From positions 434,001 through 498,000 of the forward strand of contig NZ_VOBR01000001.1 of NCBI RefSeq assembly GCF_007845675.1: 64,000 nt of DNA, in the 5' to 3' direction. Each line of letters begins with the position of its first letter. Position 1 is the first letter of the stretch. A program made the translations under genes and the position numbers. The notes under the pieces were generated by a model. The model was not told the DNA's origin. It made no database searches and saw only the letters and a program-made list of their open reading frames with translations. Shown piece after piece: positions 10,184-49,522 of this stretch. Source of the DNA: Lentzea tibetensis (lineage in GTDB: Bacteria; Actinomycetota; Actinomycetes; Mycobacteriales; Pseudonocardiaceae).

Positions 10184-11485
10184 ATGTCGTTGGACACCGA
10201 CCTCATCCCGAGCGAGCTGGCGAGACTCGCGAGGGACAACCACGTTCCCGGCGCTCAACTCGCCATCCACCACCACGGCAGGACGCTGACCTGGGAGTTC
10301 GGCGAGGTGGAGCTCGGTACCGGCCGCACGCTCCAGCGGGACACCGCCGTTCCCGTCGGCTCCGTCACGAAGGCGTTCACCGCGACGCTCGCCATGTCGC
10401 TCGTGTCCGACGGCGACCTCGATCTCGACGTCCCGGTCACCGACCAGTTGCCCGAGCTCGCGGCTCTTCCGCCAGATCTCACGCTTCGCCATCTGCTCAG
10501 CCACACCGGCGGTCTGACCTCCGACTCCTCCCCGGACGCGACCACCTCGTTGCGGCGCCACGCGCTCGAGTGCTGTGAGCTGCCGCTCGTGCGGGCGCCG
10601 GGGACGTCGTTCTCCTACTCCAACGTCGGCTACATCGTCGCGGCCCGTCTCGTCGAGGCCATGACCGGCATGACCTGGGACGAAGCCGTCGACGCCGTCG
10701 TGCTCCAGCCGCTCGGCATCACGCCCGCGTTCGTGGGCCCGCCGGGATCAGCCAGGACGAGCCGTCCGATCGCCGCAGGTCACGCGATCAACCGGGCCAC
10801 GGGAGCCGTTCGCCCCGTGGAGCAGTCGCTGGCGCTCGCCGAGGCCGCCACCGGCGCGCTGGCGACCAGCGCCCTGGACCTCGTCGTGTTCGGCCGCATG
10901 CACCTCGTTGATGACGTCCACATCGTGGACGCCGCAAACCTCGCGATGATGCGCTCGCCGGTGCCCGGCGCGGACCCGTTCGGCCTGGCCGACGGCTGGG
11001 GCCTGGGACTGGCCACATTCCAAGGCGGGTGGCTCGGACACGACGGCACGGCCGATGGCACGTCCTGCCACCTGCGAATCCACCCCGAAAGCGAGACCGT
11101 AGTCGCACTGACATCGAATTCCAGCTCGGGGTTCGGAGTGTGGAAGCAGCTCGTCGGAATGCTGCACGGCATCGGGTTCGAAGTCGGTGACCACCACCCC
11201 GTCTCCGACAATCTGCACCCGATGCCGTCACCAACTGGGTGCCTCGGTCGTTACGTCAACGGGGACACGGAGTATTCGGTCGTGTCCGCCGCGAATGATG
11301 ACAGGTTGCGCCTCGCCGTCGATGGCGAGCTGTCCGCACAATTAACGGTCTACGACGGGTTGATGTTCTCCATCGGCGACCTCGTCACCGGACAGCACGT
11401 TCAGTTCGGGCGTTTCCTGGGCAATCCGTCTGGACGCGTGGACGGTATCCAGATAACTGGTCGGCTGGCCTCCCGAACGAGCTAA
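10184..11485 (+). CDS. Stand-alone beta-lactamase-fold peptide cyclase (candidate PBP-type thioesterase, SurE-like)
   Basis: From ATG 10184 the protein is 433 residues. It has the penicillin-binding-protein active-site set: S60-V-T-K63 (SxxK), Y145-S-N147 (YxN) and H286-D-G288 in the position of the KTG box. The SurE thioesterase of surugamide biosynthesis has a closely similar spacing (Ser63, Lys66, Tyr154, His305). There is no signal peptide, which argues for a cytosolic partner rather than a cell-wall enzyme. The C-terminal 110 or so residues (from [14 protein letters not shown]) resemble the lipocalin-like domain of this group. It is the first gene of an operon whose NRPSs lack any TE domain and end in an epimerase, so it most likely offloads and cyclises the finished peptide. 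D-aminopeptidase or esterase activity is the alternative. RBS is weak (GAAGGG about 10 bases upstream). Confidence 0.82.
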
Positions 11486-11502
11486 ACATTAATTTTCTCA
11501 AT

Positions 11503-11520
11503 CACGGCACCGGTGCCGTG
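11503..11520. promoter_or_regulatory. 18-bp perfect palindrome between the cyclase and the first NRPS gene
   Basis: CACGGCACCGGTGCCGTG is perfectly self-complementary and follows an AT-rich stretch (11486-11500), 17 bases after the cyclase stop. It has no loop, so an operator is at least as likely as an attenuator. Confidence 0.4.
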
Positions 11521-11566
11521 GTCAATCCTCGCGCGCCCCTGCACGCGCTGAAAGGTCGTGGCTTCG

Positions 11567-47300: not shown

Positions 47301-48091
47301 GGGCCACGAAGCTCACCGAGCACGTCGCGCGCGGTGCACTCGATCACGAGCTGGACCACTGGTCGCAGGCCTTGCGCGGCTGCACTCTGCCCGTGGACCA
47401 CCCGCGGCCACAACCGGGCACGCCGGGCGAGTCGGTTCCCGTGCAACTGTCCGCAGACGACACCGAGGCCCTGCTGCGGCACGCCCCTGCCGCCTACCGC
47501 ACGAGGATCAACGACGTCCTGCTCACCGCGCTCGCGTGGAGCCTGTCGCGCTGGACCGGGCACCGCACGGTGTCCGTGGACCTCGAGGGCCACGGACGCG
47601 AGGACGTGCTCGACGGCGTCGACGTGTCCCGGACGGTCGGGTGGTTCACCACGGTGTTCCCGGTGGCCGTCGACGTTCCCGACCAGGCAGGCTGGCGTGA
47701 TCTCGTGAAGTCGGTGCGCAGGCAGCTGCGGACCGTGCCGGGCAATGGATTCGGCTTCGGTGCACTCCGTCACCTCGGCCGGAAGCTCCCGGCCGGCCAG
47801 GAACCGCAGGTCGCCTTCAACTACCTCGGCCAGTGGGACGAAGGTGCCGAGGACGGTCTCCTCGGCACCGTGCACGGCTCGATCGGGCAGGACGCCGACC
47901 CGGCGAACCGCGGATCGCACCTGCTGGAGATCGTCGGCAGCGTCGAGTCAGGACAGCTCGGCTTCTCCTGGTACTTCCAGCCCGACGTGCACGATCGGTC
48001 CACCGTGGAGCGTGTCGCGCGCGACTTCGCCGACGCGCTGTGCGCCATCGCGCAGGACTGCCGTGCCAGGCGGAGGGAGGGATCCGGATGA
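29327..48091 (+). CDS. Non-ribosomal peptide synthetase, modules 6-10, terminating in an epimerase without thioesterase
   Basis: ATG 29327 follows GAGGAGA, which overlaps the previous stop. The product is 6254 residues. After a short docking-like start ([14 protein letters not shown]) the order is C6-A6-T6-E6, C7-A7-T7, C8-A8-T8-E8, C9-A9-T9, C10-A10-T10-E10 (approximate residues: A6 465-930, A7 1850-2330, A8 2840-3310, A9 4265-4740, A10 5258-5730, E10 5820-6240). C6, C8 and C10 are LCL ([12 protein letters not shown]); C7 and C9 are DCL ([18 protein letters not shown]), matching the upstream E domains. Pockets: A6 and A10 DTENLGFIDK, A8 DTEDLGLVDK, A9 DTEDMGFIDK, all basic-residue-like (Orn/Lys/Arg/Dab class; A6 and A10 resemble the Orn code DMENLGLINK). 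A7 is DFWNIGMVHK, the standard Thr code. E6 has HHLVIDS in place of HHxxxDG. There is no TE, R or Cterm domain after E10. Confidence 0.96.
31329..31815 (+). repeat. 487-bp direct repeat, copy 1 (A6)
   Basis: Reads as identical to 45711-46197 at every base compared, within the pocket-bearing part of the adenylation domain. Flanks are near-identical for several hundred bases on either side. Codon use here (more CCA, GAA, AAC-rich runs) differs from neighbouring modules. Confidence 0.9.
45711..46197 (+). repeat. 487-bp direct repeat, copy 2 (A10)
   Basis: Partner of 31329-31815, offset 14382 bases. The first mismatches are at 45710 and 46198. The A6 and A10 pockets are therefore identical. Confidence 0.9.
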
Positions 48092-49329
48092 CCCGGCCGT
48101 TGTTCCGCAACCGGGACTACCAGCTGCTGTGGACCGGCCAGGCACTCTCCGAGGTCGGCATCAGCGCCACCACCATCGCCCTGCCGCTGCTGGTGCTCGC
48201 CTTCACCGGGTCACCCGGCCTGTCGGGTCTGGTACTGGGTGTGGACGCGGCCGCACAGCTCGTCGCCGGCCTGCCCGCGGGCGCACTGGTCGACCGGTGG
48301 GACCGCCGGAAGATGATGCTGTGCTGCGAGGCCGTGCAGGCGGTCGCGATCGGCAGCGTCGTGCTCGCCCTGTGGTGGGACGCACCCAGCATCCCACACC
48401 TGATGGCCGTGGCCGTCGCCACCGGTGTCTGCACGGCGCTGTTCGAACCGGCTGAAGAGGCGAGCCTGCCCCGCCTGGTGACCGACCAGCAGTTGCCGAC
48501 AGCACTCGCGCTGAACTCCGCGCGCAGCTCCATCGCCCAGCTCTCCGGCACGGCGCTCGGTGGTTTGCTGTTCGCACTGCGGAACTGGTTCCCGTTCGGG
48601 CTTCAGGCGTTGACCCACGTGGCCTCGTTCGGGCTGTTGCTGTTCATCCGGATACCGGGGCGCCGCGAACAACCCGCGTCGCGATCGAGCTTGCGCACCG
48701 ACATCGCGGAAGGACTGCGCTGGATGTGGCGCCACCGTCTCGTGCGGGTCGTCGCGTTCTGCGCGGTAGGCCTGAACCTGTTCTTCCAGGCGTTCTACAT
48801 CGTGATCATCGCCCTGGCGCAGCAACGCGGCGTGCCATCGGGCGAAATAGGGATCATGGCCGCGATGTTCGGAGCGGGCGGCATCCTGGGCGCCTTGGCC
48901 GCTCCGCGGCTGCACCGCGTGCTCGGGCCGTACCGGTCGATCATCGGGGTGTTCTGGACACTCGCCCTGCTCAGCCCGCTCGCGGTCTTCACGCACAACG
49001 GTTACCTCCTGGGCGCCGTCTTCGCAGCCATGGCCTTCCTCGCGCCGACGGCCAACATCACGATCAACACGTACCAGCTGCTGCTGGCCCCCGATGAGCT
49101 GCGCGGCCGGGTGAGCAGCGTGATGAACGTGGTTCTCGGTGTCGCCGCAGTGGCGGGTCCCGCACTCGGCGGCCTGCTCATGGAACTGCTGCCTGGCGGC
49201 CGGACGATCCTGCTGATCAGCGCCTGCATCGGAGTGCTGACGGTGCTGGCGACCGTCAGCCCGAGCCTGCGGAGCTTTCCGCATCACGAAGAGATCGACG
49301 AACCAGAGAGGATGCACGCAGATGACTGA
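48088..49329 (+). CDS. MFS exporter of the peptide cluster
   Basis: The ATG overlaps the NRPS stop as ATGA (48088-48091), with GGAGGGAGG upstream, so translation is coupled. The 413-residue protein begins [19 protein letters not shown], the usual opening of the enterobactin-exporter-like (EntS/MFS_3) transporters. It has [14 protein letters not shown] as the loop 2-3 motif and about twelve hydrophobic segments, including a late [20 protein letters not shown]. Proteins of this kind export siderophores and peptides. Its position between the NRPS and MbtH genes makes export of, and probably self-resistance to, the NRPS product the likely job. Confidence 0.9.
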
Positions 49330-49522
49330 GGACACCCAGTACCAGGTGCTGCTCAACGACGAGGAGCAGTATTCCCTGTGGCCTGCGGACCGCGAGGTAC
49401 CGGCAGGCTGGCGGACGGACGGATTCACGGGCACCAAGGAGGAATGCTCGGCGCACGTCGACGAGGTGTGGACCGACATGCGCCCGCGCAGCCTTCGCGA
49501 AGCGATGGCCGAGCAGTCCTGA
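49322..49522 (+). CDS. mbtH: MbtH-like protein
   Basis: This 66-residue protein overlaps the end of the exporter gene by 8 bases and has AGAGAGG upstream. It contains the family signature: LNDEEQYSLWPADREVPAGW followed by the C-terminal VDEVWTDMRPRSL. MbtH proteins bind A domains and are needed for folding or activity of many actinobacterial NRPSs. It is the last gene of the operon and a hairpin follows about 35 bases later. The ten A domains here are its likely partners. Confidence 0.96.
   Translation: MTEDTQYQVLLNDEEQYSLWPADREVPAGWRTDGFTGTKEECSAHVDEVWTDMRPRSLREAMAEQS

Follow-up and report, generated by a model that had tools for sequence, protein, structure and literature searches.

Gene content and module layout of the operon

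We analysed a 64,000-nucleotide stretch of the genome of the soil actinomycete Lentzea tibetensis (hereafter the window), which corresponds to positions 434,001–498,000 of contig NZ_VOBR01000001.1 in a 9.36 Mb draft of 105 contigs. Five genes on the + strand at 10184–49522 encode a 433-aa beta-lactamase-fold protein (10184–11485), assigned below to the SurE family of stand-alone penicillin-binding protein (PBP)-type thioesterases, two nonribosomal peptide synthetases, NRPS1 (11567–29313) and NRPS2 (29327–48091), a major facilitator superfamily (MFS) exporter (48088–49329; the nearest NCBIfam model is TIGR00900, with a score below the model cut-off) and an MbtH-like protein (49322–49522). The stop codon of NRPS2 overlaps the start of the MFS gene, the end of which overlaps the MbtH gene, so the five genes very probably constitute a single operon. 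This is the gene content described in an initial annotation of the window, which our analysis confirms; of its gene starts, that of NRPS1 is moved from GTG 11518 to the most likely start at ATG 11567, while NRPS2 most likely starts at ATG 29327. The same five genes, with the same ten-module layout and a terminal epimerisation (E) domain, are present on a 71.9 kb contig of Lentzea indica PSKA42 (NZ_VSRL01000019.1), and ten flanking window ORFs (some of them overlapping alternatives) gave no match to that contig at E ≤ 1e-5, which supports the operon boundaries proposed initially.

According to domain models, NRPS1 carries modules 1–5, with adenylation (A), carrier (T), condensation (C) and E domains in the order A-T / C-A-T-E / C-A-T-E / C-A-T-E / C-A-T, and NRPS2 carries modules 6–10 in the order C-A-T-E / C-A-T / C-A-T-E / C-A-T / C-A-T-E. 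This amounts to ten A, ten T, nine C and six E domains ordered along the + strand, and the final domain of the line, E10 (46691–48046), should give the product a C-terminal D-residue. In NRPS1 from position 12004 and in all of NRPS2, the only Pfam families above cut-off are Condensation, AMP-binding, AMP-binding_C and PP-binding; no thioesterase (TE) domain was found, in line with the initial annotation of a TE-less line ending in E10. The ten-residue product proposed there is likewise supported by ten modules that each have an A domain, and by the like layout in L. indica.

Module 1 lacks an E domain and module 10 ends in one, which at the gene level gives an L N-terminus and a D C-terminus. 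Models of LCL and DCL condensation domains were first derived from the C domains of the window itself, grouped by preceding domain, which is circular; the split was then redone without labels, and the models were applied to other loci. In the label-free clustering, the four window C domains that follow modules without E separated from the five that follow modules with E, and at the 80 related loci described below 97 C domains after a T domain are LCL-like and 77 after an E domain DCL-like, with one exception. Module layout and C-domain types thus bear out the L-start and D-end logic of the initial annotation, and the predicted stereochemical pattern is L-D-D-D-L-D-L-D-L-D.

The A-domain codes were read with GrsA as anchor, and position 239 is uncertain in four gapped codes. 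Modules 6 and 10 (both DT-NLGFID), 8 (DT-DLGLVD) and 9 (DT-DMGFID) are predicted to load basic residues, since they have acidic residues or Asn at 278 and Asp at 331, which we take to be the signature of basic substrates. In literature text searches none of a first six codes was found and, of a further six that included three from sister lines, only DAYWWGGT, so the assignment of these four modules rests on general code logic; the closest A domains of known structure did not point to a substrate for those of the window. Modules 3 (DAYFWGVTY) and 4 (DAYWWGGTF) are predicted to load Val and module 7 (DFWNIGMVH) Thr; a table in an excerpt of PMC9113097 lists DAYWWGGTFK and DAYFWGVTFK for Val and DFWNVGMVHK for Thr, and DAYWWGGT is given for Val in an excerpt of PMC6920865. 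No residue was assigned to modules 1 (DALLIGAVV), 2 (DVFSVAIVY) and 5 (DALLVGAVV). The predicted product is therefore X-X-Val-Val-X-basic-Thr-basic-basic-basic, a decapeptide that is probably basic at positions 6, 8, 9 and 10. A separate observation concerns the A domains of modules 6 and 10 (30901–31900 and 45283–46282), which in a diagonal comparison in 200-base steps share 94–100% DNA identity over about 1 kb, falling to 28–64% outside the module; this near-identity suggests a recent conversion or a mis-assembly.

The stand-alone thioesterase and its relatives

The 433-aa protein has a PBP domain at about 1–330 and contains the motifs S60xxK63, Y145xN147 and H286DG, in which S60, K63, Y145, N147 and H286 align with S63, K66, Y154, N156 and H305 of SurE, to which it is 38% identical. 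The Gly of the D-residue pocket is conserved as Gly224. By sequence as well as by predicted fold, its closest matches in the PDB are SurE (6ksu, 6ksv) and Ulm16 (8fek), and in the fold comparison (VIA-align) both exceed the next match by 8 Z units and align over residues 1–432. The predicted structure contains eight strands at 355–432, matching the C-terminal lipocalin-like domain of eight antiparallel strands that is found in the family, a feature for which the initial annotation had proposed structure prediction as a check.

An alternative to which we give hardly any credence is that the protein is a D-stereospecific peptidase or esterase, active in prodrug maturation or resistance, and that something else releases the peptide. 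The distance in Z units to the next match and the alignment across the C-terminal domain argue against it, as does the absence of any other thioesterase from NRPS1 (from 12004), NRPS2 and the nearby proteins scanned. In addition, the N-terminus does not resemble an export signal: the highest 12-residue hydropathy within the first 45 aa is 0.41, compared with 2.25–2.44 in five lower-scoring paralogues of the same genome (each taken at its best candidate start), which agrees with the cytosolic location proposed initially.

The tree position points the same way. Searching the genome contigs with the 433-aa sequence alone returned no relative; a query with the family alignment against the genome collection returned 217, of which the best 80 were analysed. 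In a quick tree of 73 hand-picked rows (45 of the 80 related loci and 7 of 14 low-scoring class loci), the window protein, SurE, Ulm16 and the NRPS-linked relatives fall into one clade of 61 rows (SH-aLRT 99), outside which lie R61, IS11, three own paralogues and seven lower-scoring actinobacterial rows. A careful tree of 53 hand-picked rows (32 of the 80 related loci, 5 of the 14 class loci) joins the window protein to that of L. indica at 100/100, within nested SurE-like branches (97/86, 96/92 and 96/89); the SurE-like rows as a whole do not form one group in this tree, two long outgroup branches joining among them (69/92). Placement with secreted esterases or D,D-peptidases, named in the initial annotation as the finding that would speak against it, was thus not obtained, although the careful tree leaves the SurE-like group as a whole unresolved. 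Given the N-terminus that is not hydrophobic, a position apart from R61 and IS11, and SurE and Ulm16 as the best fold matches, we reject a secreted D,D-peptidase or esterase. Catalytic residues, PDB matches, predicted fold and tree together identify the protein, at the level of sequence and model, as a SurE-family PBP-type thioesterase.

The genomic setting of the relatives is that of NRPS lines. Same-strand NRPS domains lie within 10 kb at 78 of the 80 related loci, and at the other two (L090 and L125) the contig ends 232 and 612 bases past the gene. A same-strand NRPS domain is found at most 1 kb upstream in 17 of the 80 (E in 12, T in four, C in one); the five loci with T or C upstream have another C domain within 224 bases downstream, so that these cyclase genes sit in the middle of a line. 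Among 19 controls (the 14 lower-scoring relatives and the five own paralogues; three stretches were short on one side), none has NRPS modules nearby, the only trace being a single weak A match (51 bits) in one control, 9.5 kb away on the opposite strand. Within the genus there are 20 matches in 15 of 25 genomes at E ≤ 1e-50; apart from those of the window and L. indica, 16 were inspected within stretches of 20 kb, and every one of these adjoins NRPS modules, 12 preceding an A-T start and four following a terminal E. Across a class sample, the alignment finds a match at E ≤ 1e-60 in 59 of 394 genomes, with more than 400 bits in only 16, the window genome included. Related PBP-fold proteins at loci L160–L173 (flanks L174–L187) reach about 250 bits with the family alignment and have no NRPS modules nearby; many of them lie in open frames of more than 1100 codons.

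Proposed release and closure of the predicted decapeptide

We are fairly confident that the operon makes one decapeptide, which is released and closed head-to-tail by the separate SurE-type cyclase. The ten modules would assemble a single nonribosomal chain, which, for want of a TE domain downstream, would remain bound to the final carrier protein, and E10 would convert residue 10 to the D form. The chain would then pass to Ser60 of the PBP-type thioesterase, in which Gly224 would line the D-residue pocket, and attack by the free L-amino group of residue 1 would give a head-to-tail cyclic decapeptide, presumably exported by the MFS protein. We infer the ring from the family: PBP-type thioesterases are stand-alone NRP cyclases that demand an L-residue at the N-terminus and a D-residue (or Gly) at the C-terminus, with a chemistry so far described as head-to-tail macrolactamisation only (PMC11735501).

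One close parallel is the surugamide system. SurE releases octa- and decapeptide surugamides, forms cyclosurugamide F in vitro and has also closed an undecapeptide and longer mimics (PMC11735501); it accepts several, though not all, N-terminal residues (PMC9491159, excerpt). The window operon shares with it the stand-alone PBP-type thioesterase, the TE-less NRPS ending in E, the L start and D end and, in the case of surugamide F, the ten-module line. It differs in that SurE is common to two lines, one for the octapeptide and one for the decapeptide, whereas the window operon has one ten-module line. Ulm16 of ulleungmycin and WolJ of wollamide (the latter compared by description only) have the same family and fold but serve hexapeptide lines (PMC7459860, excerpt); for WolJ, cyclisation is described of sequences that end in D-Orn and D-Arg (PMC11735501), like the basic end predicted here. 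TycC also yields a head-to-tail cyclic decapeptide, tyrocidine (PMC11735501, excerpt), but does so with a fused type I TE that joins a D-residue at the start to an L-residue at the end, the reverse of the PBP-type rule (PMC11735501). A 2026 paper reports a SurE domain fused to its NRPS (PMC13285481). The desotamide family is defined, in an excerpt of PMC7459860, by a ring that SurE closes, six to ten residues in size and containing Trp or Phe at least once; the ten modules and the SurE-type cyclase of the window match, and the aromatic residue hangs on modules 1, 2 and 5.

Several observations weigh against cyclisation in this copy, or against an active line altogether, in addition to the outgroup branches among the SurE-like rows. 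Charged C-terminal residues are disfavoured by SurE (PMC11735501), while residue 10 here is predicted basic. One group obtained mainly linear product from SurE and a surugamide F thioester, and surugamide F was itself first isolated as a linear peptide (PMC7459860, excerpt). E3 reads RHLVVDG, while HH opens this motif in the other five E domains, and C3 reads DHVTLDG, with DH for the HH of HHxxxDG; the second His is kept in both. Finally, A1 of NRPS1 is open in one frame from ATG 11567 to about 11965 and in another from about 11998, a single change through which the copy may be inactive.

The surugamide F results could mean that the PBP-type thioesterase mainly hydrolyses the chain, giving a linear decapeptide with a D-residue at its end. 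We consider this improbable, given the macrolactamisation described for the family and a layout, pocket Gly and pair of heterochiral ends that fit cyclisation.

The frame change bears on a different alternative, a decaying line that makes no decapeptide in this strain though relatives make one, which is unlikely in our view but has to be taken seriously. The switch between 11965 and 11998 is clear in the translation, in tblastn with the A1 of L. indica and in third-position GC, and A1 of L. indica reads through in one frame. On the other hand, the remainder of both NRPS genes is open with intact motifs, and the 105-contig draft, together with several frame breaks further downstream in the same repetitive genes of the L. 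indica draft, makes an assembly or base-calling error plausible. This copy would thus be either mis-assembled or damaged, and its function depends on whether the change is real. The initial annotation had missed this frame change.

With release by cyclisation as the preferred reading, the operon is a further case of an established mechanism, in which neither the mechanism nor the ring size is new. The initial annotation gave four to eight residues as the ring size of known members, which is incorrect in view of the SurE decapeptide (PMC11735501) and of a survey of 1421 actinobacterial genomes that found SurE-type lines of 4–10 modules in 166 organisms (PMC7459860, excerpt). Its suggestion that a basic decapeptide would extend the enzyme class is not supported either, given the D-Orn and D-Arg ends taken by WolJ, and we do not retain ring size or basic residues as novelties of the family. 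No account of this particular operon was found in an excerpt of the Lentzea genome survey PMC9120177, in a literature search that was not exhaustive.

Sister lines in Lentzea and neighbouring genes

The L. indica operon is close to that of the window (cyclase 65%, MFS protein 78% and MbtH 86% identical), but the codes of A2 and A3 differ, so that the products should differ. Each of the nine lines that were traced to the final domain ends in E; Pfam was used to look for TE domains in the NRPSs of the window, and the other eight lines were scanned with C, A, T, E and PBP models. Ten modules are present in the lines of the window, L. indica, a second line of the window genome (G000:C22) and L. 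terrae (G021:C34), nine in G024 and G011, and eight in G000:C13, G020 and G018. The window genome encodes three separate PBP-type TE lines, of ten (G000:C1), eight (G000:C13) and ten (G000:C22) modules, and none of them shares its cyclase, MFS or MbtH gene with another.

A side observation on PBP-type TE lines is the occurrence of modules without an A domain. At 30 of the 80 loci (L067, L074, L076–L082, L084, L085, L087–L089, L127, L134, L136; L098, L104–L108; L114, L119, L120, L123, L126, L133; L091), C is followed by T without a full A, across a gap of 79–352 bases; an A remnant of 221–284 bases is left in 17 of these loci and none in 13. One such module lies in the G000:C13 line (about 16962–18689 of the reverse complement of L045–L048 joined). 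In Lentzea and Saccharothrix it is the second module that lacks A while its C, T and E domains are intact, and in six loci the A-less module is the final one ahead of the cyclase gene. Conservation across genera makes it likely that these modules are loaded in trans or that another A domain loads twice; trans A domains are reportedly known in other systems (PMC7539972).

Around the operon, the window contains on the – strand a large RHS-repeat protein of 2035 aa with a Golvesin_C domain (54178–60285), followed by a 268-aa gene without a Pfam match that could be its partner (53362–54168), and a protein with BtrH_N and DUF4872 domains, reminiscent of butirosin side-chain transfer and unmatched on the L. 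indica contig (3064–4053). Upstream of the operon on the + strand lies a possible NACHT-type NTPase (5824–8124; 30.7 bits against a cut-off of 26.7).

We also put forward, tentatively and with somewhat less than even confidence, that the cyclase is a specialist for a polycationic decapeptide in which four residues, including the C-terminal D-residue, are predicted to be basic. It would then represent a set of dedicated PBP-type TE lines in Lentzea, each of ten modules (the four listed above), that have a common layout and a Thr-type module 7 and differ in other residues. With this operon, a small enzyme family that is used for peptide ring closure in vitro gains a line dedicated to a ten-residue product and, probably, a member able to accept a basic D-residue where the ring closes. 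The operon also suggests that Lentzea has a group of cyclic decapeptides, which are probably both cationic and amphipathic.

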